A stretch of 64,000 bases of DNA from Pseudobdellovibrionaceae bacterium. Lineage in GTDB: Bacteria > Bdellovibrionota > Bdellovibrionia > Bdellovibrionales > UBA1609. A program made the translations under genes and the position numbers. The stretch's first letter is position 1; each line of letters starts with the position of its first letter. The notes below the pieces were generated by a model. It had not been told where the DNA came from. It searched no databases and saw only the letters and a program-made list of their open reading frames with translations. The stretch spans positions 62,001 through 126,000 of the forward strand of contig JABJQG010000020.1 of the NCBI GenBank assembly GCA_018663505.1, given 5' to 3'. Below are positions 14,831-38,855 of the stretch, one piece after another.

Positions 14831-14846
14831 CACTTTGTTTCAATGA

Positions 14847-14861
14847 TGATAACGATTATCA
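14847..14861. promoter_or_regulatory. Fur-box-like operator
   Basis: TGATAA-CGA-TTATCA, a perfect 6-bp inverted repeat inside GATGATAACGATTATCAGT. It resembles the Fur consensus GATAATGATAATCATTATC and sits between a promoter and the first gene of a FeoA/FeoB operon. Iron-dependent repression is expected. Confidence 0.7.
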
Positions 14862-14914
14862 GTTACATTTTATTTCATTATGTAGCTGAAATAACACACC
14901 CAAAGGGAGGGAAA

Positions 14915-15217
14915 ATGAAAAAGTTAATTACAATGGTAGTAATGAGTATGTCACTGTCGAGCGCTTTTGCAGGAGTTCCAGAAGGCTTCTACGAAGATGG
15001 CCTAATTCGAGTTAAAGTCACAGATTTGCGGGCCATTATGGCAAGAAAAAAAGCAAGAGCTGAAAGAGATGAAAAGATTGAACTGGCAAAAGTTGATTGT
15101 CATGCCATCTATGGGGATTTCTCCATTGGCCACCAGTGGACTGTAGCACGACGTTATGGCAAAGCTCGTTATGTAGCAAAATCAAGTGCTGAAATATCTT
15201 GTGTAGAGTCAGAGTAA
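14915..15217 (+). CDS. Small exported protein of the iron operon
   Basis: 100 aa from the ATG at 14915 (GGGAGG upstream). An upstream ATG overlaps the Fur-like box and is rejected. Signal peptide MKKLITMVVMSMSLSSAFA. The mature ~80 aa are basic with two Cys (VDCHAIYG, EISCVESE), probably a disulfide. First gene after the Fur-box-like site, so probably iron-repressed with feoAB. Function unknown. Confidence 0.65.
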   Translation: MKKLITMVVMSMSLSSAFAGVPEGFYEDGLIRVKVTDLRAIMARKKARAERDEKIELAKVDCHAIYGDFSIGHQWTVARRYGKARYVAKSSAEISCVESE

Positions 15218-15329
15218 ACCAAATTTGAGTGGAGATGACCAATTATATGAGAGAGGTCATCTTCACTTTTTAGCTTAGAACAAATAAATAGATCCCATGT
15301 AAAGATTGGGCCAAACAAGGAAACTATAG

Positions 15330-16127
15330 ATGCAATCACTTTTTGGAATGTTTTGTATTTTTTTATCACTTCAAGCATTAGCTTCAACATCTCAAAAAAA
15401 TTCAACCTCAGTAGATCAATTAAAGTCATCACCAGCAACACTTGAGATAGAGGTCGATAATCAACTTTCTAGAGATGATGACAATAAAATTAATGGCCTT
15501 ACAAATGTCCTAGCTCTAAATTTTAATTATGAATTTTCAGAAATTCACTCTATAAATTTCAATACTGAAATTTCCCATCAAAAGATTGATTCAGAGTCCT
15601 CTAAAAACAATATAGAGTCTATTGAAGCTGGATATTCTAAGAAGTTTCAACTTCAATATTTAAATACATCCTTAACCTCTTCTCTCTATTATCAAATTCC
15701 TGTAAATAAGAACACCAGAGAAGACGAAAACCAAAATGGCTCAGTCTATCTTTTTTTTGAGAGTGAATCGGAGTTATCTTCAAATCTTATAATTGAAGGA
15801 GAAATTCAATTCTTACAATTCTTCAACACCTCATCAAATGAAGGGATAGTCTCTAATCTCTTCAATATTCAGGCTAATCCAATTTTTAGTATTTCAGATT
15901 CTTTATCAATAAAATTACCGCTTAACATAGAATTAGAATTCAATAATGGAAACCTTGGTTATGGGTATTCAACTACTACGATTGCTCCAACCGTAGCTTA
16001 TACTTTCCAATCAGAGATTGAAGTTGAACTTTATGCTGAGTTTACTCCCTACAATGGAACTAAAGTCATTTCTGACTTTGAAAAAAACGTAACTTACGGA
16101 GCAACACTTATTTATGGTGTTTTTTAG
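15330..16127 (+). CDS. Outer-membrane beta-barrel-like protein
   Basis: 265 aa with signal peptide MQSLFGMFCIFLSLQALA. The mature part alternates short polar and hydrophobic strands (NVLALNFNYEFSEIHSINFNTEIS, SVYLFFESESELS, ITYG-type end VTYGATLIYGVF) and ends in Phe, typical of a barrel. RBS AAGGAA. It ends 3 bp before the double feoA gene. An iron-related outer-membrane role is suggested only by context; no TonB-dependent plug is present. Confidence 0.65.
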   Translation: MQSLFGMFCIFLSLQALASTSQKNSTSVDQLKSSPATLEIEVDNQLSRDDDNKINGLTNVLALNFNYEFSEIHSINFNTEISHQKIDSESSKNNIESIEAGYSKKFQLQYLNTSLTSSLYYQIPVNKNTREDENQNGSVYLFFESESELSSNLIIEGEIQFLQFFNTSSNEGIVSNLFNIQANPIFSISDSLSIKLPLNIELEFNNGNLGYGYSTTTIAPTVAYTFQSEIEVELYAEFTPYNGTKVISDFEKNVTYGATLIYGVF

Positions 16128-16130
16128 GAA

Positions 16131-16622
16131 ATGGAAATGACTCTTTCAGAAGTGAAAAAAAACTCTACGGTAGAAATAATAAAAATTAATATGGAGAGAT
16201 ATTTACAACGTCGCCTCACAGCAATGGGATTTATTGTAGGAGATCGTGTTCAGGTTATGGCTTCGCCACAAAACCTACCTGTGACGTTAAAAGTTAAAGA
16301 TTCAACTTTAATCATCGGGCACAACGAGGCATCAAAAATATTAGTTAAAGTAATTTTAAAAAGGACAAAATGTATGGAAATTAAACTTCGGGAAATGGGC
16401 ATGAATCAAGTTGGGAAAATATCTAAAATCACTGCTGATAGAGACCTTGGCAGACGAATCAGAGATATGGGTATTCTTCCACTAATGAACATCAAAATAG
16501 TAGGAGAGGCCCCTATGTTTGATCCTGTTGCTATCAAAGTGGGTGATGCTGTTTTAACCCTTAGAAATAACGAAGCGGATTATATATTTGTTAAGATTGA
16601 TGGAGGATCTAATGAAAATTAA
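16131..16622 (+). CDS. feoA: Tandem FeoA protein
   Basis: 163 aa made of two FeoA (SH3-like) domains: ~1-75 (MTLSEVKKNSTVEIIKI, RRLTAMGFIVGDRVQV) and ~82-158 (IKLREMGMNQVGKISKI, RRIRDMGILPLMNIKIV). Usual FeoA is one domain of ~75 aa. FeoA supports FeoB-driven ferrous iron uptake at the inner membrane. The gene overlaps feoB by 11 bp. The duplication is a natural fusion rather than an error because both domains are intact. Confidence 0.92.
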   Translation: MEMTLSEVKKNSTVEIIKINMERYLQRRLTAMGFIVGDRVQVMASPQNLPVTLKVKDSTLIIGHNEASKILVKVILKRTKCMEIKLREMGMNQVGKISKITADRDLGRRIRDMGILPLMNIKIVGEAPMFDPVAIKVGDAVLTLRNNEADYIFVKIDGGSNEN

Positions 16623-18813
16623 TGTTGCAATAGCAGGAAACCCAAATAGTGGGAAAACTACTCTTTTCAACTCTTTGGCCGGGACAAACTACCATGTAGC
16701 TAATTATGCCGGAGTAACTGTAGAAAAAAAATCGGCATCAGTGAAGTATAATAGTGCAATAATTAGTTTTGTGGATCTCCCCGGAACGTACTCTCTTACA
16801 CCATATTCACTTGAGGAAAAAGTAGCACGAAATTACATCATAGATGAAAAACCAGATATAATTGTTCAGGTCGTTGACGCTTCAAATCTTGAAAGAAATC
16901 TCTACCTTACAATGCAACTTCTGGAACTCGACGTCCCTATTATTATTGCCTTGAACATGGTTGATGTTGCAGAAAAAAGAGAAATTACTATTGATGATGT
17001 AGCACTCTCTAAAAAAATGGGAGTTTCTGTTGTTAAGACAATTGCTCGAACGAGTCAAGGTAAGGAAGAACTTCTTAAAGTAATTGAAAACTTTGACTCA
17101 ACAAAAAAAGCGTTGGGAATTCAGGACTTTTCATACGGAGAAGATATAGACTCTCTGTTAATAAAAACAATTCGACTCATTGAGCAGAATGAATTTTTAA
17201 CAAAATATTCCTCTCCAAAATGGGTAGCTCTGAAGTACATCGAAAATGATGAACAAATCCTAAAAGAAGGAAATTTAGAGTCAAAGAAAGTTCACACGCA
17301 ATTACTTAGTTTTACTACTAAAATTGAGAAACATACCGAAACCACTTTTTCAACATATCCTGAAGCTATTATCTCTGATCATCGATATGGTATTGTTAGC
17401 TCACTACTCAAAAATACCGTTAAGAGAAAAAGTGCAAACCTTGATCGAGTTTTCATGTCTGATCGAATCGATATAGTTTTAACACAAAGATTAATAGGTC
17501 CTATTGTGTTGCTTGGAATTTTGTACTTCTCTTATCAATTTACATTTTGGGCCAGCGAGTACCCAGTAGCCTGGTTAGAATCATTTTTTGAAATAATCAC
17601 AACACTAGCGAATAACAATTTGCCTGACGGACTTTTAAAGTCTCTTGTTGTTGATGGAATAGTTGGAGGAGTTGGTGGAGTTCTTGGTTTTACACCATTA
17701 ATAATGTTTATGTTTTTTATCATTGCTGTTTTAGAAGACTCTGGCTATATGGCCCGAGTTGCATATATGCTAGATCGTCTTTTTAGATTTTTTGGATTAC
17801 AGGGAAACTCCGTTCTCCCCTATATTGTGTCTGGTGGCATAGCAGGAGGTTGCGCTGTTCCTGGAGTGATGGCAACGCGGACAATAAAGAGCCAAAAGGA
17901 AAGGTTGCTAACTATTCTCACTGCTCCCTTTATGGCATGTGGGGCAAAACTTCCAGTATTTGCGCTTTTAATAACTGCGTTTTTTCCGGGGGATAAAAGT
18001 TTGCTATTGCTTGGAATCACTGTTTTAAGCTGGCTCTCTGCACTGATTGTTGCAAAAGTCCTAGGAAGCACAGTTGTGAAAGTTGGAAAGAGTGAGGCGT
18101 CTAGCTTTATAATGGAATTACCCCCATACAGGTTTCCAACTCTAAAAGGATTATTTATTCATGCTTGGGAAAGAACATGGATGTATATAAGAAAGGCTGG
18201 AACAATAATTCTATCTTTATCAATTGTTTTATGGGTCTTAATGACATTTCCTCAAATGTCAGAAACTGAATTAAAGATTTTTGAAGATAAAAAAGACAAT
18301 GTTTCATCTCAATATACTCCAGAAGTTGTTCAAGAAATTATGACTGAAAGTGAAAGTTTGTCAGCTAAGGCAAAAGAACTTCAAGAAAAATTAACTAAAA
18401 TTGGTAATACGGAGGCTCAAGAGGCACTAAAGTACTCTATTGCAGGACGTGTAGGAACTTTCATCGAACCAATAACTAAATACGCTGGGTTTGACTGGAG
18501 AACAAATATTGCTTTGATTGGCGGAATAGCTGCCAAAGAAGTTGTGGTTTCTACTCTTGGTATCGCTTATTCACTTGGAGATGTTGATACTGAAGATACA
18601 GGCTCCTTATCGGAAAAACTTGCAAATGATCCTCAATGGGATTTTGGAGTGGCACTAGCACTAATCTTCTTCACCATCCTTTATGCCCCCTGCTTTGTAA
18701 CTGTTGTAATGATCTCTAAAGAATCGGGATCATGGAAGTGGGGAGGATTTACTGTAGTCAGTTATACGGCACTCGCATTTTTCGTTTCTGTGATTGTTAA
18801 TAATATTTTTTGA
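16612..18813 (+). CDS. feoB: Ferrous iron transporter FeoB
   Basis: 733 aa from the ATG at 16612 (GGAGG 5 nt upstream). The N-terminal G domain has G1 GNPNSGKTT, G3 DLPGTYSLTPYS and G4 NMVD. After a helical linker come the Gate and core membrane segments typical of FeoB (PYIVSGGIAGGCAVPGVMATR, PFMACGAKLPVFALL, GGIAAKEVVVSTLG). The length is normal. Transports Fe2+ into the cytoplasm. Sits in the Fur-box operon with double FeoA and a Cys-rich FeoB-associated protein. Confidence 0.97.
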   Translation: MKINVAIAGNPNSGKTTLFNSLAGTNYHVANYAGVTVEKKSASVKYNSAIISFVDLPGTYSLTPYSLEEKVARNYIIDEKPDIIVQVVDASNLERNLYLTMQLLELDVPIIIALNMVDVAEKREITIDDVALSKKMGVSVVKTIARTSQGKEELLKVIENFDSTKKALGIQDFSYGEDIDSLLIKTIRLIEQNEFLTKYSSPKWVALKYIENDEQILKEGNLESKKVHTQLLSFTTKIEKHTETTFSTYPEAIISDHRYGIVSSLLKNTVKRKSANLDRVFMSDRIDIVLTQRLIGPIVLLGILYFSYQFTFWASEYPVAWLESFFEIITTLANNNLPDGLLKSLVVDGIVGGVGGVLGFTPLIMFMFFIIAVLEDSGYMARVAYMLDRLFRFFGLQGNSVLPYIVSGGIAGGCAVPGVMATRTIKSQKERLLTILTAPFMACGAKLPVFALLITAFFPGDKSLLLLGITVLSWLSALIVAKVLGSTVVKVGKSEASSFIMELPPYRFPTLKGLFIHAWERTWMYIRKAGTIILSLSIVLWVLMTFPQMSETELKIFEDKKDNVSSQYTPEVVQEIMTESESLSAKAKELQEKLTKIGNTEAQEALKYSIAGRVGTFIEPITKYAGFDWRTNIALIGGIAAKEVVVSTLGIAYSLGDVDTEDTGSLSEKLANDPQWDFGVALALIFFTILYAPCFVTVVMISKESGSWKWGGFTVVSYTALAFFVSVIVNNIF

Positions 18814-18828
18814 GTAAGGATAGTCTAA

Positions 18829-19002
18829 ATGGAAAATATAATAGCTCTGATAATTATATGTGTTGCCTTTTGGTATATTGGGAAAAATTTATTTTCTAGG
18901 GTGTTTTCTGCCATCGCAATTATTAAAGAACCAAACAACAATAACGATTTAAAGTGTATTGGCTGCAAAAGTAGCTGTACGTCAAATAAAAATAATTTTT
19001 AA
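18829..19002 (+). CDS. FeoB-associated Cys-rich membrane protein
   Basis: 57 aa, 15 bp after feoB. One N-terminal helix (MENIIALIIICVAFWYIGK) and a C-terminal Cys cluster CIGCKSSC. This arrangement matches the FeoB-associated Cys-rich family (sometimes called FeoC-like). The Cys may bind iron or assist FeoB. Confidence 0.8.
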   Translation: MENIIALIIICVAFWYIGKNLFSRVFSAIAIIKEPNNNNDLKCIGCKSSCTSNKNNF

Positions 19003-19021
19003 GATAACTTAAGAGGAACTA

Positions 19022-20515
19022 ATGAAATTTGTAAAAATAATCCCCCTACTAATACTATTAACGAGCTGTCATAGTAAAGATTTAGAAACTGAAAACAAGC
19101 AAGATGCCGTTAAAGATAAAATTGAAAGTGAAACTAATCAAAATAACACTAAAGATAAAATTGAAAAATCAACACCTAAAAAACAGTCCAAACGAACCCA
19201 AACCAACTCTTTTAGCTTTCATAAAAACTTAACTGTTTTTGAAGGTAAAGTCAGCTATCTTTTAAAATTCGAGGCCTTGCAAGTAGAACTTAAACCAGAT
19301 GAAGTAAGTGGAATGTTAAAACCTATAAATAGCGATATATCGATTCCAAAGGAGATTAATAGGCAGATTCAATTGATCTATCTTTTAAATGATCAATATC
19401 CGGCCAATATTTCATTAGAAAGTATTATTAATATGCTCAATATTGGAAATCAAGATTTCTATAGTACGAACATCTCAACTATCATTCATAATACGTGCTA
19501 CCAACAAAAAAATACTCCCTGTCTTGAAGAACTTCTTGAATTTGTAGAAAATGATCGCTCTAAGATAAATTTAGACTTTAAGAATAACTTAGATGAAATC
19601 AACTTTCTGGCTTCTGATGTTATTACCTCTCTTGCGATGCTAACTGATAACTGGGAAGAGGCTAGGTCTCTTTTTGCATCAGCTCTAACACTTGAAAATA
19701 AGAATCAAAGAACACAAGAGCAGGCCAGGTTATTTTCAATCAAAATTGCAATTAAGGTTCTAGAATTCTATGAGCAAGAAATCTCAACAAATGGTTTAAA
19801 TACAGCAATATCTTTTACACTTGAAAATGGAGAGTTTGACTTTGTTGACTCATTAATTGAGGTGACTGCAAATACATATAATGTACTTCGTCTCATCACT
19901 TCTTTATTTGGTGATAGGTTTGCTCAGGATATTAGCGATAGATGGATTGCAAGCTTATCTCAAGTAAGACAGTACAAGACAGAATTGAAAGAAGTTTTAC
20001 ATAGTTATCAGGATGGAACAAAAAGTTTTCAAGAGTTATTAGGTCACAATTTAGCGCAAACTCCTTTTGGAAAGCATCTTGTACAACACTATATTTACCC
20101 TATAGATACTGAGCATGATATCAATTTTCCTGCAATTGAACTTTTTGAAATTGATAATATTAATGAATTCACTAATCCACAAATAGCTCAAGTTCTTCTT
20201 GGACAGTTGAACTTTTTAAACGTTTATATGCTTTTGCGTGGGCCAGCAATAATCCAGGCTTTTGGGAAAACGGCCATTGGCACAACTATTGTTGATAAGT
20301 TAAAACTAAAGGCCATTGTTGATAGATTCTCAAGGCTTCGCCCTCCACTTAATAACATCATGGTCGTCGCAGCTTTAGAGACTGCTGATGGCTGTATTCC
20401 ACGTTATATTTATGTCATATATACAGTGGGTGATACCATTTCGGGAGATGATAAGAAAAAATTAGAAGCAATTCTTTCTTCAACACAAAAAAATAAACAA
20501 TTAATAGTAAGATGA
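19022..20515 (+). CDS. Large lipoprotein of the iron operon
   Basis: 497 aa. The lipobox LLTSC gives a lipidated Cys16. A lysine/glutamate-rich linker (~20-65) with a repeated DKIE motif precedes a mostly helical domain rich in L/N/I that may hold TPR-like repeats (EEARSLFASALTLENKNQRTQEQARLF). RBS AAGAGG, 19 bp after the small Cys-rich gene. No family recognised. The operon context suggests an envelope role tied to iron stress. Confidence 0.7.
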   Translation: MKFVKIIPLLILLTSCHSKDLETENKQDAVKDKIESETNQNNTKDKIEKSTPKKQSKRTQTNSFSFHKNLTVFEGKVSYLLKFEALQVELKPDEVSGMLKPINSDISIPKEINRQIQLIYLLNDQYPANISLESIINMLNIGNQDFYSTNISTIIHNTCYQQKNTPCLEELLEFVENDRSKINLDFKNNLDEINFLASDVITSLAMLTDNWEEARSLFASALTLENKNQRTQEQARLFSIKIAIKVLEFYEQEISTNGLNTAISFTLENGEFDFVDSLIEVTANTYNVLRLITSLFGDRFAQDISDRWIASLSQVRQYKTELKEVLHSYQDGTKSFQELLGHNLAQTPFGKHLVQHYIYPIDTEHDINFPAIELFEIDNINEFTNPQIAQVLLGQLNFLNVYMLLRGPAIIQAFGKTAIGTTIVDKLKLKAIVDRFSRLRPPLNNIMVVAALETADGCIPRYIYVIYTVGDTISGDDKKKLEAILSSTQKNKQLIVR

Positions 20516-20550
20516 ATTAAATATTTAGAAACTGAACAAAAAAAGGAGTA

Positions 20551-21051
20551 ATGATGCTTACAAAAGAACAACTAAAGAGATTAAATGACCAAGTTAACAG
20601 AGAAGCCTCTGTATCAAGAGCCTACCTCGCAGTTTCATGTTGGGCTGCTTCAAAAGGCTTAGATGGTGTTGCCAGGTTTTTTAAAGGACACCATGAGGAA
20701 GAAGAGGAGCATATGCATAAAATAGAAAATTACATCATCTCTACTGGTGGAAAAGTTGTTATCGGGGCGATAGAGGCTCCTCCATCTGAATTCAAAGATG
20801 TTCTGAGTGTTCTAAAAATGGCGCTAAAGAAGGAGATAGAAATTTCATCAAGCATAAATGAAATGGTCTATCTGTTCCTGGAGGAAAAAAACTATTCTAC
20901 TTTTAATTTTCTACAGTGGTTTGTTGCCGAACAACACCAAGAAGAGCATCTGTTTAGAAGTTTAATTGAAAAAGCAGAGTTAATTGGGACCGATAAGAAA
21001 GGTCTTTTTTGGATTGATAAAGAACTAAAAAATATGAGCCTAAATAAATGA
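20551..21051 (+). CDS. ftnA: Ferritin (non-heme, FtnA type)
   Basis: 166 aa; AAGGAG then ATGATG, so the start may be one codon later. A four-helix ferritin with ferroxidase-type ligands: Glu near residue 17 (NREASVSRAYL), the HHEEEEEHMHKI run around 52-63, and AEQHQEEHLF near 130. Stores iron as ferric mineral. Co-located with ferrous uptake genes, so import and storage travel together. Confidence 0.93.
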   Translation: MMLTKEQLKRLNDQVNREASVSRAYLAVSCWAASKGLDGVARFFKGHHEEEEEHMHKIENYIISTGGKVVIGAIEAPPSEFKDVLSVLKMALKKEIEISSSINEMVYLFLEEKNYSTFNFLQWFVAEQHQEEHLFRSLIEKAELIGTDKKGLFWIDKELKNMSLNK

Positions 21052-21150
21052 CTATAGCCCCCCTTATTCATTGGCAAAAGCATTACATGTTATTGGAGTA
21101 ACTTTTTGGAATGGAGGATTTGTCGCCTTCATTCTTATTTCGGCCGTATA
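21052..21150 (+). pseudogene. Remnant of a small membrane-protein gene (HemJ/CopD-like)
   Basis: After ferritin, one frame reads SLAKALHVIGVTFWNGGFVAFILISAV and then stops. This resembles the N-terminal heme-protein signature (KALHVIGV..W..GG) of HemJ/CopD-type membrane proteins. A start (MTIAPLIH) exists only in another frame. It looks like a decayed fragment. Similarity is from memory and weak. Confidence 0.3.
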
Positions 21151-21250
21151 AAAAATGGATGACATTAAAGATCAATTTCTTTTTTTTGCTTGAATCACTA
21201 TTTCTACATAATATTTTTTTAACTTCGCACAAACCCAACCCAAGAGATTA

Positions 21251-21343
21251 ATGGAAACAGCTTATTACTTGTATCTAATTTTGATTCTCTTGAGTTTAGT
21301 TACCCTCTTGATGTATATTAAATACGCATTAGTGACGTTTTGA
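21251..21343 (+). CDS. Possible 30-aa hydrophobic peptide
   Basis: ATG to TGA, mostly one helix (YYLYLILILLSLVTLLMYIKYAL), with a weak ribosome site (AAGAGA). It lies in the 374-bp stretch between ferritin and the metalloregulator, which otherwise shows only AT-rich promoter-like DNA. Could be a small membrane protein or chance. Confidence 0.3.
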   Translation: METAYYLYLILILLSLVTLLMYIKYALVTF

Positions 21344-21425
21344 TTTAGTAGCTTGCTTTATTTATTTTTTACTATATATTGCATACCAAACAAAAGTTAC
21401 CATATAAAAACAAGAAGGCTTTTAG

Positions 21426-21965
21426 ATGACAATTGATAAAACAAATAAAGTAAGTGAGATCGAATTGAGTCACTCTATGACTCATTATCTTCTTGTTATT
21501 CATGACCTCAAAGAAAAGAGTGGCTATGCAAGAGTCACGGATATCTCTAAGAGATTAAATATAACGAAAGGCTCTGTTTCCATTGCCACTAATAACTTAA
21601 AGAAAAAGGGACTTGTTGAGGAAGAAGAAGGGACAAAATTTTTGAAATTGACAAAATTAGGGCATAATGAGGTTCATCTCATCCTGTCGAGCCGATCATT
21701 ACTCTTTGTTTTTTTTAGCGATCTCCTTAACGTTGAAGAAAAATATGCTAAAGAAGCCGCATGCTTGATGGAACACTTGACGAATCATGATGTAAGAGAA
21801 AAATTGTTCTATTTCATAAAAACTATATCACTCCCAAGTAGAGACCCAAAAAAGAAGAAAATTATTAATGACATTAAGAATTTTAAATCTAATTTAGATC
21901 TATCTCAACATAAATCAGCGCTGGAATTTATAGATAATCAAGCCAGTGACTTTGAAAGATGGTAA
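21426..21965 (+). CDS. DtxR/MntR-type metal-dependent regulator
   Basis: 179 aa. Residues ~12-75 form a winged HTH of the DtxR/MntR type (MTHYLLVIHDLKEKSGYARVTDISKRLNITKGSVSIATNNLKKKGLVEEEEGTKFLKLTKLG, quoted in parts across this region). The dimerisation helices have the metal-ligand-like motif EAACLMEHLTNHD. No SH3 domain, so closer to MntR than DtxR. It probably responds to Fe2+ or Mn2+ and may control the iron island or ferritin next door. Confidence 0.85.
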   Translation: MTIDKTNKVSEIELSHSMTHYLLVIHDLKEKSGYARVTDISKRLNITKGSVSIATNNLKKKGLVEEEEGTKFLKLTKLGHNEVHLILSSRSLLFVFFSDLLNVEEKYAKEAACLMEHLTNHDVREKLFYFIKTISLPSRDPKKKKIINDIKNFKSNLDLSQHKSALEFIDNQASDFERW

Positions 21966-22117: not shown

Positions 22118-22154
22118 TGACCCAAATGATGTTTTTTGACCAATACCATGTTCA
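22118..22154. promoter_or_regulatory. Two activator-like sites upstream of the transfer operon
   Basis: TGACCCAAATGATG starts at 22118 (right arm poor). TGACCAATACCATGTTCA at 22137-22154 has the 18-bp TGACC-N8-GGTCA layout with one mismatch in the right arm (GTTCA). Confidence 0.45.
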
Positions 22155-22192
22155 TGTGTTTCTTAAGACATTACTGATACTTAAAAAAATCT

Positions 22193-22210
22193 TGACCCAA
22201 CTTTTGATCA
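22193..22210. promoter_or_regulatory. Activator-like site 3 upstream of the transfer operon
   Basis: TGACCCAACTTTTGATCA: exactly 18 bp, TGACC-N8-GATCA, one mismatch to the arms of the autoregulatory sites. It lies 88 bp before the -24 box. Confidence 0.5.
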
Positions 22211-22280
22211 CACAAAAATTAGATAGAATCTCAAAATTAAAAAAACATATAATTTCAACATGATAAGTCATTCTTAATCT

Positions 22281-22296
22281 TGGCACAACTCCTGCT
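22281..22296 (+). promoter_or_regulatory. Sigma-54-like promoter of the transfer operon
   Basis: TGGCAC-N5-CTGCT: the -24 box is perfect and the -12 keeps the essential GC with one mismatch (C for T). It ends 45 bp before the first tiny gene of the transfer operon. It should depend on the activator encoded at 8458. Confidence 0.65.
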
Positions 22297-22871: not shown

Positions 22872-23048
22872 ATGGAGGCCACAATTCAAAGTGATTTTAA
22901 TGATATTTTTTCATCTCTAACAAAAAAAGAGAAGTCAAAAAATAAGAGATTAAAAAAACAGTCAAAAAAGCTAAAGAACTTAGTTGAACGATTTTCATCG
23001 ATCCTGAACAAAAGTTTAGAGGAAGTTAAACGGAGTAAAAATGGGTGA
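22872..23048 (+). CDS. Small lysine-rich protein (58 aa)
   Basis: ATG directly after the previous stop; about one residue in three is basic (TKKEKSKNKRLKKQSKKLKN). Its stop overlaps the start of the coupling-protein gene by 8 bp. Probably a nucleic-acid or membrane-surface binding accessory factor; unknown. Confidence 0.55.
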   Translation: MEATIQSDFNDIFSSLTKKEKSKNKRLKKQSKKLKNLVERFSSILNKSLEEVKRSKNG

Positions 23049-23853
23049 GCAAAAGGACATTTCAATATACGTGGCATTGAGTTTTCTCTTGGTTGTGGGG
23101 CTGACAGTTGCAATTATGAGTAATTCGGAGTTTGTTGTCCACTTATGGGAAAATTCAAGGCCCATATTCTATCGTGGCCAATATTTTTTTACGAGCATTG
23201 GAATCAGTATATTGATTAACATCCTTTTAATAGTGGCGATCTTTGAACGTACTTTTGGTTATAAAAAACAAGGTAGCCGTCTCAGAAGTATTCATGGAGA
23301 TAAAGCAACGAGTTCTCTGAAAGCGGTTATTCCCTTGGGTGCATTTGCGTATTTAATTTTATATTTAGTATTTTTAAGTTCATTTATCGATTCTGGGTTG
23401 AGTGACCTCTTTACAAAAATAGGACTGGCTTTTAAAACAGAAATTTTAATACTTGTTAATAGTTCTTTTGCAATCACTATTCTTTTCATCATTTTACTTA
23501 TTTTTAAAATAGTTAGATCAATAATGGATATCCTCGGAAGACAAAAAAGACTTTCTAAATATCCTGAAAACGAAAACCAATTAACTTTAGGCTCCGTAGG
23601 AGAAGGAGAAAGTTTTGATGCTGAAGAAAATCCTCGTTGGGTTAAGTTGAATAAAAAAGCACTCAATGGAAATATTCTTGTAACAGGATCAATTGGTAGT
23701 GGTAAAACTCAAGGATCTATTCTCGTTTTTGTTGATCAAATCTTAAAGAATTTCTCTCCCCGTCCATCAATGTTGATTTTAGACCCTAAAGGTACATTCA
23801 TTCCAGAAGTTAGGACAATGGCGACAAAATATGATCTACAGGAGGTTTTATAA
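23041..23853 (+). CDS. Conjugative coupling protein, N-terminal half (VirD4/TraD type)
   Basis: 270 aa. Four membrane helices (about 9-27, 48-68, 98-117, 136-158) are followed by a cytoplasmic segment with Walker A GSIGSGKT (216-223) and a LILDPKG strand (245-251). It then stops, where full VirD4/TraD proteins continue for 300+ residues. The missing part is in the next gene. The stop TAA shares its last base with the next ATG, and AGGAGG precedes that ATG, so the halves look separately translated and must associate. The complete ATPase would pump relaxosome DNA into the T4SS. Confidence 0.85.
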   Translation: MGEQKDISIYVALSFLLVVGLTVAIMSNSEFVVHLWENSRPIFYRGQYFFTSIGISILINILLIVAIFERTFGYKKQGSRLRSIHGDKATSSLKAVIPLGAFAYLILYLVFLSSFIDSGLSDLFTKIGLAFKTEILILVNSSFAITILFIILLIFKIVRSIMDILGRQKRLSKYPENENQLTLGSVGEGESFDAEENPRWVKLNKKALNGNILVTGSIGSGKTQGSILVFVDQILKNFSPRPSMLILDPKGTFIPEVRTMATKYDLQEVL

Positions 23854-26108
23854 TGAATAAATGTATCATGAGACTTTCTCTTGATGGTCATCATACATTT
23901 AATCCTGTCTATATACAGGATGCCCTGAAAGAGTCACGCTTTGCTGAGATTGCATCAATGATTAGAGCTGCCGCCAAAAATTTCTCTGGCCGATCGAGTG
24001 AAGCTCCAATTTGGGAGAATTCTGCTTTTAACCTTACAAAAAATGTAGTTATTTTTTGTGCTGCAACTAAAAACTATTTTACACTAAATGATATTTACAA
24101 CGCCATTTTGATGGCCTCAGAAAAGAATTTAATTCGAGATTTAGAAGATTCCTTAGATAGCAACGAATTTACCGAAGAAGAGGCTTATAACATAAGATGT
24201 GCAATTAAATATTTTGATGAGTTTGCTGGATTTGAAGAGAAATTCAGATCTGGTGTATCAGTTACATCTACAACTTTCTTAAGTCAATTTCAGGATTATC
24301 AGATATCTAAAATATTTTGTCCAAAAATAGAAGATCTAACATTAACTTGCATGGATGAAATCATTGATAAACAAATTATTTTACTGGTAGATATTGAAAA
24401 TGAGTCTCTTTCTAAGTCAATTGGTACTTTTGTTAAACTTCACTACGAAAAATCAGTATTGAGCCGCCTGAAAGATCCAAAGCGAAGTAGTGAACATATG
24501 GCAATCATCGTAGCTGATGAATATCAAGATTTAGCATCTGTATCGCATGGTTCACAGCTTGGTGATGAAAAGGTGTTGGCCAAAGGCCGTGAAGCAAATT
24601 TTTTCTTTTTGGCAGCATCTCAAAGTATCGTATCAATCTTTAATGCAATTAGAGATGAAAAGGCCTCAAAGGAGTTAATACAAAATTTTCGTACTCGTAT
24701 TGCTTGTCATTCCTCTGATATTGATACCATTAGAAACTTCAAAGAGCTTCTCGGGCAAAAAGATAGCGAGAAAATCACTAAAAGTATTTCTGAAAACTCA
24801 CAAAAAGCCAGCCGCAACTACCTTCTAGGAGGATTTGACTCTCTCAATGCTAATATTAGCGAGTCGATAAGTACTGGCCAACAAAAAGAATATTTGGTGA
24901 CAGGAAGAGAGTTTTCACAGCTCAAAACATTCGAGTCATTTGCCCAAGTTTATGATGGGGTAAGAACAGATTTTTACAAATTATTTCTTAAACCTCATTT
25001 TCTTGAAAAGAAAAACACCACACATAAACAACTCATTGAGCTGCTAGATGGTATTCCTTCCAAATGGCAGCGAGTAAAGGCCACTATGTTTAAAACTTGG
25101 AAAATTATCAAAAAGGCATTTTATATTATATTTCTTCTCTTCTCTGGTAAAGCAATGGCACTCCCTAATATTTGTAGTGTAGTTAATAAACCTGCATTTC
25201 ACTCATGCCTTCAATATCGTGTGACTCCAACAATGTGTGGATGGCCGATACCAAGGCCTTGCGCCCGTTTCTCTTATTATGTGCCTCAAACATTTATAGA
25301 GGTATCCGCCCGAGCAGGGGGATCATACTTTACTGCACTTCCGGGGGCAGCAATGCAACTTGCAGGTGTCCAGACCTTACCTCCATATGGAACTGAAGGA
25401 GATGAAGATACACAGTCCTACCATGCTCATACTCTCTCTGTTCCTTTTGCAACAATACCATTTAACATGATGCCTTGTGGAGGTACACGTATTCCAAAGC
25501 TTTGCTTTGATGGTATGAGTGAACATATTTATAAACACTGGTCGACTGGGTTCAGTGACAAGTTTCAACCAAATTTTTTAGCATGGTCGCTCTCTCCTAA
25601 GGCCTGCTTAATAAAAGGTGCCATTGCTTCAGCCGTTGGTGGCGAGGCCAGCTTTGCTGCCGATTCTCCTATGTGTAGTATTCCTTTACCGCCACTACCT
25701 ACGTTTCCACCCTCCAGTCACTCAGCTTGTAATGGCTGGGGGGTGTTTTATCCCCGAATGGGTAGCTATAACGGCCCTGCATCAATGACTGGAGCGTTAA
25801 TGATTGCCTCTCGAATGAGGTCTCTCTCATCAGAAGTATTCATGTCTACGCCAAGCTATCCTGTAGAAAAATGGCAAATGATTAGTCCTGGCTCTAGCTC
25901 TTGCTTTGGTGAAGGGCAAAACATTGGAATTCTAGAAACGATAAAGAATGCACGAGAAATAGGCAGATTAACAAGCGGAAAATTAAGCGGTCACCTTTTT
26001 GTTATCTGGAAACAAGTAAGTTGTACTCGTGATTTGCCTGCTGTACCTGTTGCAGCAGCAGCTCTTGCGGCCATGGTGCCTGTCTGTCATGGATTGGGGG
26101 GGCGATGA
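23853..26108 (+). CDS. Coupling protein C-terminal half fused to a TraU-like (PFL_4710-type) exported domain
   Basis: 751 aa. Residues 1-~390 complete the VirD4/TraD ATPase (FNPVY, then the second acidic strand HMAIIVADEYQDL, then AASQSIVSIFNAI). From Met412 a signal-peptide-like stretch starts (FKTWKIIKKAFYIIFLLFSGKAMA). The rest is a Cys-rich exported domain (TPTMCGWPIPRPCARFSYYVP ... CGGTRIPKLCFDG) resembling TraU/PFL_4710 ICE proteins. Either the two are fused across the membrane, or translation restarts at the ATG at 25086 (weak RBS AAAGG), giving a separate 340-aa TraU-like protein. Confidence 0.75.
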   Translation: MNKCIMRLSLDGHHTFNPVYIQDALKESRFAEIASMIRAAAKNFSGRSSEAPIWENSAFNLTKNVVIFCAATKNYFTLNDIYNAILMASEKNLIRDLEDSLDSNEFTEEEAYNIRCAIKYFDEFAGFEEKFRSGVSVTSTTFLSQFQDYQISKIFCPKIEDLTLTCMDEIIDKQIILLVDIENESLSKSIGTFVKLHYEKSVLSRLKDPKRSSEHMAIIVADEYQDLASVSHGSQLGDEKVLAKGREANFFFLAASQSIVSIFNAIRDEKASKELIQNFRTRIACHSSDIDTIRNFKELLGQKDSEKITKSISENSQKASRNYLLGGFDSLNANISESISTGQQKEYLVTGREFSQLKTFESFAQVYDGVRTDFYKLFLKPHFLEKKNTTHKQLIELLDGIPSKWQRVKATMFKTWKIIKKAFYIIFLLFSGKAMALPNICSVVNKPAFHSCLQYRVTPTMCGWPIPRPCARFSYYVPQTFIEVSARAGGSYFTALPGAAMQLAGVQTLPPYGTEGDEDTQSYHAHTLSVPFATIPFNMMPCGGTRIPKLCFDGMSEHIYKHWSTGFSDKFQPNFLAWSLSPKACLIKGAIASAVGGEASFAADSPMCSIPLPPLPTFPPSSHSACNGWGVFYPRMGSYNGPASMTGALMIASRMRSLSSEVFMSTPSYPVEKWQMISPGSSSCFGEGQNIGILETIKNAREIGRLTSGKLSGHLFVIWKQVSCTRDLPAVPVAAAALAAMVPVCHGLGGR

Positions 26109-27268
26109 GTAAATTAACGATAATACAAAATCAAACAAGCGAACAAAAGGTTTCAGGTGGATCTCCGTATGCATCCTTGTTTAAAGATGCCATCTTTTAT
26201 GCAAAAAACTGTTCCGTAAGTGACATTCACATTGAACCCACCTCTACTGGTGTTCTTATACGAATGCGAAACAACGGTGAGCTAAAAGATTGGAAAAAAC
26301 TTCCTTTGGACTATAGGCAAAGCTTCATCCAAGAGGTCAAAAGACTGAGTAATCTATCAATTGCTATCAGTAATCGGCCACAGGATTCAAGACTTTCACT
26401 TCCATCATGGGATTTAGCTTTGAGAGTCAACAGTACACCCATGTTATATGGAGAAAAGATTGTACTAAGGCTTCTTGACCTGAGCACTACCTTTGATTTT
26501 GAATCAGCAAATATTGATGAGTCTTGTGCCGTTGATATTAAAAAGGCAGTTCAAAATAAAAATGGAGTCATAATAATATCAGGGCCAACTGGTAGTGGAA
26601 AAACGAGGACACTCTATACCCTGCTCAATTCTCTTGAGAAAGAACAAAAGAATATTGTAACTCTTGAAGATCCTATTGAGTACACTTTTGAAAGAATCAA
26701 TCAAATTGAAATTAATGAGAAAAATCTTAGCTTCAGCGATGGGCTTAGGGCAATTTTAAGACAAGACCCTGATGTTATCCTTGTTGGTGAGATCAGAGAT
26801 TTTGAAACTGCGGATTTGTGTTTCAAAGCAGCGGCTACTGGACACTTGGTACTTTCTTCTCTTCATGCAAACAGCTCCACGAAGGTTGTTGATCGTCTGC
26901 TAAATTTGGGTATTGATCAGTATATTATCGAGTCAAATTTAAGATTTTCAGCGGCACAGCGACTTTTGAAAAAAATCTGCCAAGGTTGTTCATCAAAAGC
27001 TTCACTTGAGGATATTGATAATTTAGGTCTCACTCTTGCCAAGGCCAATATTGATAATAAGGTGAGTAACTTTAAGGTTAGAAACCCATCAGGTTGTAAA
27101 TCGTGTGATAACGGAATCGTGGGAAGAGTGCCTGTCATTGAGTACATTACAAAGGTCGAACTGGACTTTTCTAATCCATTAATTCCAAAAGAGTCTCTAC
27201 GTCAGGCGACTCTTAAGTTGGCCCAAAAAGGCCTTGTCGATATCAACGAGGTATTAGATGCGCAATAA
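26105..27268 (+). CDS. PilB/GspE-like secretion ATPase in the transfer operon
   Basis: 387 aa; ATGA overlap with the gene before. Walker A GPTGSGKT (160-167), Asp box (LEDPIEYTF), Walker B (DPDVILVGEIRD, 221-232) and His box (ATGHLVLSSLHANSS). A tetracysteine Zn motif (Cys292, Cys295, Cys331, Cys334) is typical of GspE/PilB, not VirB11. The N-terminal MshEN domain is absent. Powers assembly of the pilus or T4SS in place of, or like, VirB11. Confidence 0.85.
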   Translation: MSKLTIIQNQTSEQKVSGGSPYASLFKDAIFYAKNCSVSDIHIEPTSTGVLIRMRNNGELKDWKKLPLDYRQSFIQEVKRLSNLSIAISNRPQDSRLSLPSWDLALRVNSTPMLYGEKIVLRLLDLSTTFDFESANIDESCAVDIKKAVQNKNGVIIISGPTGSGKTRTLYTLLNSLEKEQKNIVTLEDPIEYTFERINQIEINEKNLSFSDGLRAILRQDPDVILVGEIRDFETADLCFKAAATGHLVLSSLHANSSTKVVDRLLNLGIDQYIIESNLRFSAAQRLLKKICQGCSSKASLEDIDNLGLTLAKANIDNKVSNFKVRNPSGCKSCDNGIVGRVPVIEYITKVELDFSNPLIPKESLRQATLKLAQKGLVDINEVLDAQ

Positions 27269-28025
27269 ATTTATAGCAATAGCTTTATGCCTATCTTCGA
27301 GCATGGTGTTTGCTGATAGTGAATTTAAGTATTTTGATGATAAGATTAACTATTGGTCTAGTGATAAAAAAGTTGAAATTAAAAAAACAGAAAAATTGTC
27401 ACCTACTAAGAAACCTAAAGATACAAAGACATTTAACTGGTCAAACTACCTTAATCCTAAAAATGATGACTTTTTTAAAGAAGGAAACTACACACCACCG
27501 GCCCCTTTTATGGAGTTAGCCAGAAATCCAACGGACAAAAATATTAAAAATTGGATTGCTTATAATAAGCTAAAAAATCAATTATCAAAAAGACTCCAAA
27601 CTAGGATGCAGACATATTTAGCAAAAAACACCAAAGGAGAGAAACAAAAAGAAGCCATTACCCTATATAAGAAAAAGGTACATAAAATAAAGGTCTCTGC
27701 TATCGACCCTGCTAGGTATCGAGTTAGAATGTTTTTTGATTCAAAATGTCCTCACTGTAAAAAGATGTTTGGAACACTTGTTAAATTACAGAGTGCGGGA
27801 GTTTTTGTTGAGGCCCTACAGGTTGATAAAGGTACTCTTAGATCTTTACAATATCCAATACCAATTCGTCCAGCATCACAAGAAGAGATTAAACAGCACA
27901 AAATAGAGGCCGTACCATTTACCTTGATAGCTGACCTGAAAAAGAAGGTTTTGTATCCACCCTTAAGGGGCTATCAAAGTATGAATACAGTTATGAATCT
28001 GTTGAAGGAAGCTGACAATCTATAA
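27258..28025 (+). CDS. Periplasmic thiol-disulfide protein (DsbC/TrbB/TraF-like)
   Basis: 255 aa, signal peptide MRNKFIAIALCLSSSMVFA. A low-complexity helical middle is followed by a thioredoxin-fold domain with the active site CPHC (FFDSKCPHCKKMFGTL) and the cis-Pro region EAVPFTLIAD. Overlaps the ATPase gene by 11 bp. Probably catalyses disulfide formation or isomerisation in the Cys-rich transfer proteins, such as the TraU-like domain upstream. Confidence 0.82.
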   Translation: MRNKFIAIALCLSSSMVFADSEFKYFDDKINYWSSDKKVEIKKTEKLSPTKKPKDTKTFNWSNYLNPKNDDFFKEGNYTPPAPFMELARNPTDKNIKNWIAYNKLKNQLSKRLQTRMQTYLAKNTKGEKQKEAITLYKKKVHKIKVSAIDPARYRVRMFFDSKCPHCKKMFGTLVKLQSAGVFVEALQVDKGTLRSLQYPIPIRPASQEEIKQHKIEAVPFTLIADLKKKVLYPPLRGYQSMNTVMNLLKEADNL

Positions 28026-28119
28026 ATAAAAATTGGCCTACGACTACAAACGAGGCATTCGCAACAATTTAAGAGCTATCGACCATTAGGAGATAGAACT
28101 TTATGTCGTGGGAGGCCAC

Positions 28120-28524
28120 ATGAACACAATGTTACTAAATCATATGGTTGATGTATCAACCATACCCAAGCTTTCAGAAGATGGGCCTAGAGGACCAAAA
28201 TATTGGTTTTTGATCTTGCTAGGAATAATTCTAACATCATTAGTTTGCTTAGATTCTTATGGAGCATCAAGACTGCCCGGAGTTGATGCTGCCAATAAAC
28301 TAGAAGCCGCAGGAACACTTTTAAAACTTGTTGATACGGCACTGTTTATTTGGGGTGCTCGCATCTTTGCAGGCATTGCAATTCTTTCTGCTGGATGGAA
28401 TCTCAAGGAGCAAAGATTTGGTGTTGCTGTTATCTGTGTCGTTAGTGCTCTAATTTTTGGAACAGCACCAATTTGGGTCAAAAATATCTTTGACATTGGT
28501 GGTGGTAACGGAATTTTTTCGTAG
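28120..28524 (+). CDS. Pilin-like small membrane protein of the T4SS
   Basis: 134 aa from the ATG at 28120 (GGGAGG upstream; a GTG four codons earlier lies in the RBS). Three hydrophobic helices: ~32-49, a middle one from about 75 (LVDTALFIWGARIFAGIAIL) and one near 107-125 (VICVVSALIFGTAPIWV). This fits VirB2/TraA-type pilin or the TIGR03745 ICE family in position (before TraL) and topology. The sequence match is not decisive. Confidence 0.65.
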   Translation: MNTMLLNHMVDVSTIPKLSEDGPRGPKYWFLILLGIILTSLVCLDSYGASRLPGVDAANKLEAAGTLLKLVDTALFIWGARIFAGIAILSAGWNLKEQRFGVAVICVVSALIFGTAPIWVKNIFDIGGGNGIFS

Positions 28525-28538
28525 TGAGGATTTAAGAG

Positions 28539-28850
28539 ATGTACGATTATTCAGATTTACAAACGAACCATGGCAGAAGAGTTAGCCAAACAATAGATTC
28601 TCCTATAACCGTCTTTGACTTTTGGGAGCTTGGAGATGTTTTTATTGGACTATTTATTATTATGATTTTTGGTGTCATCGCATACTCATGGTGGATTATG
28701 AGCATTTTATTACTTTTATTTTTAGTTCTAGGCCCTGTGGTTAAGAAGAAAAATAATCGCGGCATTTATCTTCATTGGCCTTATCGCCATTTAAAAATGA
28801 ACTTGCCCGGAATTATTAATCCTAAGGGAAGAACTAGATATTCAGACTAA
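28539..28850 (+). CDS. TraL/VirB3-like T4SS membrane protein (TIGR03750-like)
   Basis: 103 aa. N-terminal SPITVFDFWELGD precedes two adjacent helices (~45-80: VFIGLFIIMIFGVIAYSWW, ILLLLFLVLGPVV), then a basic tail with HWPYRHLKMNLPG. The size, topology and place between pilin and TraE match TraL/VirB3-type proteins of F-like and ICE systems. Confidence 0.75.
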   Translation: MYDYSDLQTNHGRRVSQTIDSPITVFDFWELGDVFIGLFIIMIFGVIAYSWWIMSILLLLFLVLGPVVKKKNNRGIYLHWPYRHLKMNLPGIINPKGRTRYSD

Positions 28851-28868
28851 CAAACAAAGGAGACGTTA

Positions 28869-29081
28869 ATGAGCAATTCAGAAAAAGCAAATACAAAATC
28901 TAATGGAGGAAACTATGCAAGGAGACCTATTGAAGAGATTAAGGCCTTTAAATCTAAAGATGGAAAATATTTTGTCGTTCAAACTATTAAAACGTGCATT
29001 TTACCTATTAATTATGTGGATACGATCATTAAAAATGAAAGCCCGCTCAAAAATGGAAAATCTATTGAAAAAGAGCAGTGA
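28869..29081 (+). CDS. Small hydrophilic protein between traL and traE
   Basis: 70 aa; strong AAAGGAGA before the ATG. The sequence is charged (EEIKAFKSKDGKYFVVQTIKTCILP). The last 40 codons overlap an ORF in another frame whose C-terminus (EAAKITTPPNGVYEGVDL) also looks like protein. A single-base shift near 29070 (run of A) would join them. Function unknown. Confidence 0.55.
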   Translation: MSNSEKANTKSNGGNYARRPIEEIKAFKSKDGKYFVVQTIKTCILPINYVDTIIKNESPLKNGKSIEKEQ

Positions 29082-29166
29082 GATGATTGGAGCCATGGAA
29101 AAAGGCATTGAGGCCGCAAAGATCACGACACCTCCAAATGGTGTATATGAAGGAGTAGACTTATAA
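28903..29166 (+). CDS. Overlapping ORF, perhaps the frameshifted tail of the preceding gene
   Basis: The maximal ORF is 87 aa, but it shares the first ~180 bp with the preceding gene in another frame. Only the part after 29083 is unique (from MIGAMEKGIEAAK). Starts at 29053 or 29083 are possible; the TGA of the preceding gene ends 1 bp before the ATG at 29083. It is either a short coupled gene or the true C-terminus of the preceding one. No clear RBS. Confidence 0.3.
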   Translation: MEETMQGDLLKRLRPLNLKMENILSFKLLKRAFYLLIMWIRSLKMKARSKMENLLKKSSEMIGAMEKGIEAAKITTPPNGVYEGVDL

Positions 29167-29167
29167 G

Positions 29168-29213
29168 TTCTCCCTAAATATCTTTGTTTTAAGGCCGCAC
29201 TCCTAAGGGAGAA
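29168..29213 (+). promoter_or_regulatory. Inverted repeat covering the RBS of the traE-like gene
   Basis: TTCTCCCT (29168-29175) is complementary to AGGGAGAA (29206-29213), which is the ribosome site, ending 1 bp before the ATG at 29215. The 30-nt loop lies between. Such pairing could limit translation of the following gene. Confidence 0.45.
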
Positions 29214-29214
29214 A

Positions 29215-29829
29215 ATGCTTCTACAATATTTTGTTTTGGCACTGGTAGGTGTTTTTTCAGCGTACTTCTTTATAAGCCGAAGTGAGATTGGAGGTCTTTA
29301 CACTCAACTCAGGCAGAAAGAGTATATTTTAGCTCCTGGAGTTGTTGATTTTACTCCGGCATCTCCTCAAAGTGTTTCTGATCAATATGTTGATGATGCT
29401 GCAATGTCGTTTCTCTCATTACTTGGAAATATTAATGCCATTAATATTGATGGAAATTACGAACGCTTATCAAAATTTATGGGAGCTGAATTAAAGATTC
29501 GATTTGATGCTGAAGTGGCCGAATGGCGAGAGACTGTAAAACTTGAGAATATTTCTGAGATATTAAAGATTACAGATAAAGAAATTATCTCAGATGATAA
29601 TGGTTACTATCGTCTTGTTGCCGTCGCTAATAGAGAGCGATACGTCAATAATGAGTTTCTTGGCACTTCAGATGAAATTATTGAAATGATTTTACAACTT
29701 GTTCCTCCACAGAAAGGTAAAGAGTGGTTTCTTCAGATAAATTCACTCACACGTTCAGAATCTAGTTCATTTAGAGGCCGTGAAACAAAAGGTAAGTCAT
29801 CAAGAGAAAAAAGGAGTTCAAATGAGTAA
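29215..29829 (+). CDS. TraE/VirB8-like T4SS protein (PFL_4703-type)
   Basis: 204 aa. One N-terminal helix (~1-20) anchors a periplasmic domain ending QINSLTR. The middle (DDAAMSFLSLLGNINAINIDGNYERLSKFM) matches the TraE/PFL_4703 layout of ICE systems. The last 20 residues are basic. It overlaps the traK-like gene by 8 bp. Part of the T4SS core scaffold. Confidence 0.75.
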   Translation: MLLQYFVLALVGVFSAYFFISRSEIGGLYTQLRQKEYILAPGVVDFTPASPQSVSDQYVDDAAMSFLSLLGNINAINIDGNYERLSKFMGAELKIRFDAEVAEWRETVKLENISEILKITDKEIISDDNGYYRLVAVANRERYVNNEFLGTSDEIIEMILQLVPPQKGKEWFLQINSLTRSESSSFRGRETKGKSSREKRSSNE

Positions 29830-30628
29830 TACCATATTAAAAATAATAACTCTGATTAGTCTTTTAGTTTTATCTGACTTTGCCTTAGCGAAGGATATCT
29901 ATTACGGGTCAGGAATAGAAACAGTAAAACTAGTTTATGGACAACCAACTATTTTTAGATTCCATAAACAAGTTCGTACTATTTCTCAAATCCATAGGTT
30001 TGATATTCAGCCAGCAGATCAAAATGATCCAGATTACTCTGTTCTGACCGTCAAGCCTCGCTTCACAAAAGGAACAAGTAAGGCCGTTTTTATTCTTAGT
30101 GATGGTTCACCAGTAAATGTAAAACTAGTCATGGCATCAAAATCATATAAAAAGAGTGAAGCCTTTTATGATTTCAAGCCAAAGAGTCAATTGATTGAAC
30201 GTGGTTCTGATAACTCAAATCTCCCTGTTGTTACAGAGATTGAATTGATGAAAGCAATGATCAGAGATGACTTGGTTACTGAATATAAGAAGAAAAATCT
30301 GAATAAATGGATTAACTCTCATTTTGAAAAAGTTTCAGTTTATCTGAAGCGTATTTACACGGGCAAAGAGTATAACGGATATGTTTTTACAATAATTAAT
30401 AATCGCAGATACTCGGGGATATCAATTGATATTAAAAAATTGATTTTAGGAGACCCTAATCTTGCAGTTCTATCTCAGATTGATGATGAATTTCTTCCTC
30501 AGAGAAAAAAGAAGTCCAAATCAACAACTTTAAGAATCGTTGCAAAATCAAGTGCGACATATGGAAATGTAACGTTACCAATAACAATTGTTAAACCAAA
30601 GAAGAAATCTAAAAAAGGAGGGAAATAG
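29822..30628 (+). CDS. TraK/VirB9-like T4SS protein
   Basis: 268 aa from the ATG at 29822 (AGGAG upstream; the longer ORF start lies inside traE). Signal peptide NTILKIITLISLLVLSDFALA. The strand-rich mature protein (IETVKLVYGQPTIFRFHKQVRTISQ) fits the TraK/TIGR03749 secretin-like family. It ends in a lysine-rich tail. Overlaps traB by 1 bp (TAGTG). Outer-membrane part of the core complex. Confidence 0.75.
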   Translation: MSNTILKIITLISLLVLSDFALAKDIYYGSGIETVKLVYGQPTIFRFHKQVRTISQIHRFDIQPADQNDPDYSVLTVKPRFTKGTSKAVFILSDGSPVNVKLVMASKSYKKSEAFYDFKPKSQLIERGSDNSNLPVVTEIELMKAMIRDDLVTEYKKKNLNKWINSHFEKVSVYLKRIYTGKEYNGYVFTIINNRRYSGISIDIKKLILGDPNLAVLSQIDDEFLPQRKKKSKSTTLRIVAKSSATYGNVTLPITIVKPKKKSKKGGK

Positions 30629-31860: not shown

Positions 31861-32104
31861 CACTAATTTTGCAGGGTGTGCTCATACATCCCCCGGAATG
31901 AAGATCCTTGAGGAGAGGGCCAATTATTCAGATATAAAAAATGTCCGACCGGCGGACAAAAGTCACTCGGCAAGAAGTGGATCTCAAGTTAAAAAGGCTT
32001 GGTTGTATCCACATGAGATGCCGACGGGTGACTATTTTGGAGGAGCTTGGTTACATTTGGTGGTTAAGGAAGATCGTTGGAATGTGAAGGAATTGATTAG
32101 GTGA
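31820..32104 (+). CDS. TraV/TIGR03751-like lipoprotein
   Basis: 94 aa from the ATG at 31820 (GAGAAAAAGAG upstream). Lipobox in NFAGC, then a short charged mature domain (MKILEERANYSDIKNV ... YFGGAWLHLVVKEDRW). Small lipoproteins at this point in F/ICE operons are TraV/VirB7-like anchors of the outer-membrane ring. The sequence is short, so the family call rests mainly on position. Confidence 0.7.
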   Translation: MQKYFPILAVLLISTNFAGCAHTSPGMKILEERANYSDIKNVRPADKSHSARSGSQVKKAWLYPHEMPTGDYFGGAWLHLVVKEDRWNVKELIR

Positions 32105-32174
32105 TTCTCCACGCAGTGAGTGGAGAATTTGTCACGCTATGAGTGACGAATTGTGAACTCGATGCGTTCACAAT
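32104..32174 (+). repeat. Tandem array of three 25-nt hairpins with a 23-bp period
   Basis: Three units start at 32104, 32127 and 32150. Each is a 9-bp stem with a 7-nt loop (loops GCAGTGA, GCTATGA, TCGATGC); stems are perfect apart from one T-G pair, yet all three stem sequences differ. Neighbouring units share 2 bp. They directly follow the stop of the lipoprotein gene and precede the toxin-antitoxin promoter. Could be an mRNA-stabilising or attenuation element. Confidence 0.75.
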
Positions 32175-32206
32175 CTTGGATCATACCTAATCTAAAAAGT
32201 TGTGTA

Positions 32207-32221: not shown

Positions 32222-32279
32222 TGACTTTTTTGTGGTGATATACTACATAATATTAGTCAGTCACCATTAGGAGGACAAA

Positions 32280-37302: not shown

Positions 37303-37303
37303 G

Positions 37304-38823: not shown

Positions 38824-38855
38824 TGGCGACTTTTAGAGTGAACAACGTGAGCATA

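Follow-up and report, generated by a model that had tools for sequence, protein, structure and literature searches.

A probable sigma-54 control region for the transfer genes of a putative integrative conjugative element in a Pseudobdellovibrionaceae bacterium

Genes of the element

The window (the whole stretch of DNA analysed, 64 kb) encodes a five-gene signalling cassette, an iron-related cargo, and a conjugative transfer (tra) operon (Table 1). The first cassette gene encodes a response-regulator/enhancer-binding protein (bEBP); after it come those for the radical SAM/SPASM enzyme, the small secreted protein, the SBP_bac_5 protein, and the histidine kinase. The type IV secretion system (T4SS) is F-like. 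The T4SS, coupling protein, relaxase, and integrase lie in one block, meeting the gene criterion for an integrative conjugative element; since T4SS and relaxase genes are joined by a terminal integrase, the whole looks, by gene content, like such an element.

The bEBP matches the Pfam models Response_reg and Sigma54_activat. Its GAFTGA motif and helix-turn-helix were read off the alignment; no Pfam helix-turn-helix model scored above threshold. By sequence, the protein meets the receiver, GAFTGA AAA+, and helix-turn-helix criteria for an NtrC-type response regulator. The small secreted protein follows the radical SAM gene and is kept in all complete cassettes, with a variable carboxyl-terminal tail. 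Gene content, and nothing else, makes it a candidate precursor of a modified peptide signal.

Nothing convincing was found in a search for direct repeats on the flanks of the iron cargo. The traD gene is split after the Walker A region: its two reading frames meet at TAATG, with AGGAGG just before the second start. TraD in relatives is encoded by a single reading frame of about 1000 residues. The split looks more like gene fission than simple damage, although a sequencing error could also account for it. Beside the signalling operon, on the minus strand (5711-7633), lies a cluster of TIR, caspase (C14), and ThsB-type TIR genes, a candidate Thoeris-like defence system. Parts of this cluster are seen again beside the cassette in one relative (L037, 223-1016).

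Table 1. Features of the signalling cassette, cargo, and transfer operon (window coordinates)
Feature	Position	Strand	Remarks
Autoregulatory site A1, TGACCAAGATGCCGGTCA	8150..8167	+	perfect palindrome
Autoregulatory site A2, TGACCCAGAGATGGGTCA	8237..8254	+	perfect palindrome
Autoregulatory site A3, TGACCAAGACCTTGGTCA	8335..8352	+	perfect palindrome; 66 bp before -24 element
Sigma-54 promoter of signalling operon, TGGCACTGGTATTGCT	8401..8416	+	perfect consensus
Activator (bEBP)	8458..9873	+	receiver, sigma-54 AAA+ (GAFTGA), carboxyl-terminal helix-turn-helix
Radical SAM/SPASM enzyme	9874..11001	+	no equivalog cutoff reached
Small protein, 106 residues	10949..11269	+	apparent signal peptide; candidate signal precursor (inferred)
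SBP_bac_5 oligopeptide-binding-type protein	11281..12807	+	probably membrane-anchored; putative receptor
Sensor histidine kinase	12816..14564	+	carboxyl-terminal receiver-like region
Iron cargo: FeoA, FeoB, ferritin, DtxR-like repressor	14843..21965		between kinase gene and tra promoter
DtxR/MntR-like iron-dependent repressor gene	21426..21965		just upstream of tra sites
Distal activator site T1, TGACCCAAATGATGTTTT	22118..22135	+	strong left half-site, degenerate right half
Activator site T2, TGACCAATACCATGTTCA	22137..22154	+	one mismatch to TGACC-N8-GGTCA; 19 bp from T1
Proximal activator site T3, TGACCCAACTTTTGATCA	22193..22210	+	one mismatch to TGACC-N8-GGTCA; 56 bp from T2
Sigma-54-type -24/-12 promoter of tra operon, TGGCACAACTCCTGCT	22281..22296	+	predicted start near 22307
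Coupling protein TraD, two reading frames	23041..26108	+	23041-23853 and 23853-26108
Rest of transfer operon	26105..41799	+	T2SSE-type ATPase; TraF-, TraL-, TraE-, TrbI-, and TraC-type T4SS proteins; relaxase
MobA/VirD2-type relaxase	39904..41799	+	part of transfer operon
Tyrosine recombinase (integrase) of the element	42587..43792	+	

Two promoters and their upstream sites

Sites A1 to A3 and a sigma-54 promoter stand ahead of the bEBP gene. The tra promoter reads TGGCAC-AACTC-CTGCT; it places GG at 22282-3 and GC at 22294-5, meeting the sigma-54 spacing criterion, and departs from TGGCACN5TTGCW at one position, in the -12 element. By these sequence criteria it is likely to be a sigma-54-dependent promoter, RpoN dependence being inferred. 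The genome does encode RpoN (PF04552 match on contig C25, E = 1e-64). Genome-wide, TGGCACN6TGCW occurs 16 times, versus 2 for the reversed control, and both promoters are among the 16.

A sequence-only reading of the region had noted this promoter with three upstream TGACCMA half-sites, two of them fitting an 18-bp layout with one mismatch. Both claims held: the half-sites lie on the plus strand at the starts of T1, T2, and T3, and T2 and T3 are the two that fit. T1 fits TGACC-N8-GGTCA with its left half only. T3 lies 88 bp before the -24 element.

How much weight can such sites bear? TGACCMA alone is only mildly enriched (26 observed, 16 expected), and its counts alone are weak evidence. The full palindrome is far more restricted: with at most one mismatch it occurs in the window only at A1, A2, A3, T2, T3, and position 7581, and three of the four perfect copies in the 3.78-Mb genome are at the signalling promoter. 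Allowing one mismatch genome-wide gives 72 copies versus 59 for the reversed control, which is near background, so a lone one-mismatch site is uninformative. The argument therefore rests on two such sites within 56 bp of each other together with a sigma-54 promoter. Scored with a matrix built solely from A1 to A3, the tra-upstream region beats 1000 of 1000 dinucleotide shuffles. A further pattern, TGGCACNNNNNTGCT, was rejected: it is one base short and uninformative about the activator site.

The first open reading frame past the tra promoter has 14 codons (MKILKSIFKKLGAF, GTG start; 22343-22387) and lies behind a strong AAAGGAGG. The first genes at this position vary between elements; several relatives have zinc-ribbon proteins.

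The cassette in related genomes

Relatives of the cassette were located with the kinase and radical SAM enzyme as queries. Synteny of the cassette extends to about 11 further loci in related Bdellovibrionota, most of them adjoining T4SS genes. All five genes occur in the same order in G093 (two loci), G100 (two, one cut by a contig end), G076 (two), G075, and G037 (two); copies were partly recovered from G091, G074, and G204. Those relatives with a named record are Bdellovibrionia or Bdellovibrionales metagenome-assembled genomes (MAGs), and looser ones come from Elusimicrobia, Oligoflexia, and Deltaproteobacteria MAGs. When plasmids were searched with the radical SAM enzyme, every match was a distant, generic relative below 60% identity.

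The nine loci whose flanking sequence is long enough all have T4SS genes beside the cassette, either the window's F-like type or a clearly diverged TraC/TrbI set. This recurrence with clearly diverged T4SS genes makes the cassette a likely transferable control module. The sequence-only reading had placed the signalling operon 8 kb from the tra genes. This gap is accounted for by the iron cargo, which separates the kinase gene from the tra promoter; in G037C1, G093C31, and G074 no such cargo intervenes, and the tra promoter directly follows the kinase gene.

That arrangement bears on two rival explanations. According to the first, the sites belong to the DtxR/MntR-like repressor, whose gene is adjacent to them, and transfer is metal-responsive. 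However, these sites are also present 13 kb away, at the bEBP promoter, and in relatives whose kinase gene and tra promoter have no such repressor between them. DtxR and MntR boxes, moreover, are known to look different from these sites. This explanation is all but excluded.

According to the second, the bEBP binds these sites in a repressing or architectural role, and tra owes its transcription to a sigma-70 promoter or to read-through from the iron-cargo operon. In its favor, no plus-strand terminator was found between 21965 and 22281, so that read-through from the cargo operon remains possible, and there is one weak sigma-70-like match at 22192. However, sigma-70-like matches are at chance level (3 versus 3.5 expected), and a sigma-54-like element lies at the same place in relatives without the intervening cargo operon. 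We consider this explanation very unlikely.

Three side observations concern sites elsewhere. Both G100 cassettes have three extra own-type palindromes upstream in a similar arrangement (L033:7478-8024 and L134:12469-12963), located at neither the bEBP nor the tra promoter. One looser relative (L075:2646-2761) has a palindrome, TGTCCAAGATTTCGGACA, 100 bp before a sigma-54 site, TGGCACCCTCATTGCT. That pair lies directly upstream of a radical SAM gene, without an adjacent bEBP.

Site layout across loci

All readable bEBP promoters have three palindromes of the form half-site-N8-half-site, although in G074 one of the three is poor. The distance from the start of the proximal palindrome to TGGCAC is 66-68 bp throughout. 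The half-sites fall into types: TGACC in the window, G093C13, and both G100 loci; TGTCC or CGTCC in G093C31, G037C1, G037C12, G076C10, and G075; mixed in G076C3; and GGTCC-like in G074.

Weaker sites of the locus's own type lie upstream of tra in eight of the nine loci, window included (scored with each locus's own matrix, 0 of 1000 shuffles reach the observed score). Each of these eight tra promoters also has a sigma-54-like element, and so meets the sequence criterion for a target of its own bEBP. The claim that the signalling operon is linked to the tra genes is thereby supported by comparison. The exception is G074, where a sigma-54-like element is present without significant sites (420 of 1000 shuffles); re-testing with a corrected motif gave the same outcome. 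In the window, G093C31, and G037C1, scans of whole loci (20-40 kb) place the tra-upstream sites second only to the autoregulatory sites.

Two layouts are seen. The window, G037C1, G037C12, G093C31, and G076C10 share a distal pair spaced by 19-20 bp, a further 54-56 bp to the proximal site, and 69-88 bp from there to the sigma-54-like element; the position and half-site pattern of T1 are seen again in G037C1, G037C12, and G093C31. In G093C13, G100C97, and G076C3, the tra promoter has a doubled TGG element and two main sites separated by about 70 bp. Among the sigma-54-like elements at tra are TGGCACTCTACTCGCA, TGGCACTGCACTCGCA, and TGGCACCTTTCTAGCA, along with the less canonical TGGCACATGCCTTGTA and TGGTACACCCCTTGTA. 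Because the -12 element has GT instead of GC in two (G093C31 and G076C10) and TGG is doubled in three, the tra promoters conform less closely to the consensus than the bEBP promoters do.

The sites themselves also differ. Mean palindromicity is 5.9/7 at bEBP promoters (24 sites) versus 4.5/7 at tra promoters (21 sites; Mann-Whitney p = 2e-5), and most tra sites have one degraded half-site. One caveat is selection: match decided the choice of bEBP sites, and position in part that of tra sites, a procedure biased toward the observed difference. Nevertheless, the occurrence of an intact and a degraded half at equivalent positions across loci argues for conserved design. The remark that tra sites are weaker, made for the window, thus holds across loci. 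The further claim, that weak sites set a higher activation threshold than for autoregulation, is consistent with these data and remains an inference: it follows if occupancy limits activation, and cooperative binding at the 19-20 bp pair could offset it.

Co-variation of sites and activator

Loci of the TGACC and mixed types have asparagine in the bEBP recognition helix (PNxxL); loci of the TGTCC type, along with G074, have lysine ([SAP]KxxL). Whether TGACC or TGTCC, the type is the same at a locus's two promoters, and the two groups differ at a single residue of the recognition helix, N versus K. The change in site type occurs within both window-type and diverged T4SS loci, and therefore is not just a by-product of which tra genes are present. 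Independent changes are few. Moreover, a cross-matrix test splits TGACC from TGTCC loci without always ranking the exact own matrix first, so co-variation is established at the level of type only. Within that limit, sequence and comparison establish the promoters, the sites, their layout, and the co-variation between site type and activator.

Could the tra promoter be sigma-54-dependent and yet be activated by another cellular bEBP, the TGACC half-sites being coincidental? The genome encodes at least 13 other bEBPs, and the mild enrichment of half-sites alone would fit. Against this, relatives show the site type at tra tracking the activator encoded in the same locus; a similar recognition helix is absent from the 13 other bEBPs found; and perfect sites are hardly seen outside the promoter of the activator itself. 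This alternative, too, is very unlikely.

A model for transfer control

These observations favor reading 22118-22296 as the sigma-54 tra control region of an integrative conjugative element, with the bEBP of the cassette as its activator. We regard this as likely in the absence of expression or binding data. Binding, phosphorylation, the direction of regulation, the threshold order, and the peptide signal are all inferred.

RpoN-RNA polymerase would bind the -24/-12 element at 22281. The bEBP would be phosphorylated, probably by the cassette kinase, would bind the weak sites T1, T2, and T3, and would remodel the closed complex from a distance, with tra transcription starting at about 22307. 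The same bEBP would bind the strong sites A1 to A3 and drive its own operon, forming a positive feedback loop. Because the tra sites are systematically weaker, the tra operon should come on after the feedback loop or need more activator than it does. As for the input, gene content alone points to a peptide as the probable signal: the small secreted protein would supply it, the radical SAM enzyme might modify it, and the SBP_bac_5 protein and the kinase would detect it.

A bolder reading would make this a Gram-negative family of integrative conjugative elements that transfer in response to a self-amplifying peptide pheromone. The radical SAM enzyme would modify the pheromone, a binding protein and a kinase would detect it, and the sigma-54 activator would turn on its own operon first (strong sites) and then tra (weak, cooperatively spaced sites). 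By a modest margin we think this fuller version more apt to be wrong than right.

The same wiring is found in related elements, pointing to cell signalling as the control on when the element spreads. Strong feedback sites paired with weak transfer sites yield a testable prediction about a mobile element's decision to transfer. Moreover, the co-variation of site type and helix provides a natural data set for studying bEBP specificity and insulation between co-resident elements.

Comparison with known systems

Activation of sigma-54 promoters by NtrC-type regulators is already known, as are regulated conjugative elements such as CTnDOT (PMC2704930) and pCF10 (PMC5552905). A search of the open-access literature found no account of the cassette or of the two-promoter design, and, within that limit, an element-encoded sigma-54 activator controlling conjugation appears little described.

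The system resembles NtrC-type sigma-54 systems in its -24/-12 promoters, RpoN, activator architecture (receiver, AAA+ with GAFTGA, and helix-turn-helix), palindromic sites 60-250 bp upstream, and apparent autoregulation, although no NCBIfam equivalog cutoff was reached in this comparison. It differs in what it controls, namely a conjugation (T4SS) operon carried by a mobile element.

CTnDOT, an integrative conjugative element of Bacteroides, carries regulatory genes, rteA and rteB, that stimulate excision or transfer (PMC2704930); here too, the element itself encodes its regulators. RteB is a two-component, NtrC-like regulator. RteA and RteB respond to tetracycline and act through rteC. Unlike the element described here, CTnDOT is not known to contain a cassette of radical SAM enzyme, small secreted protein, and SBP.

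In Enterococcus, pCF10 (PrgZ/PrgX) places its transfer operon under control of an element-encoded peptide-binding protein and cell signalling (PMC5552905). An element-encoded peptide-binding-type protein and signalling over a transfer operon are common to both systems, the peptide signal here being inferred. No PrgX-type protein was seen in the cassette, so the criterion for a pCF10-type system is unmet: SBP_bac_5 is present, and the regulator is a bEBP. Thus, whereas the pCF10 peptide is imported to the cytoplasmic repressor PrgX, the element described here pairs a kinase with a sigma-54 activator, in a Gram-negative lineage.
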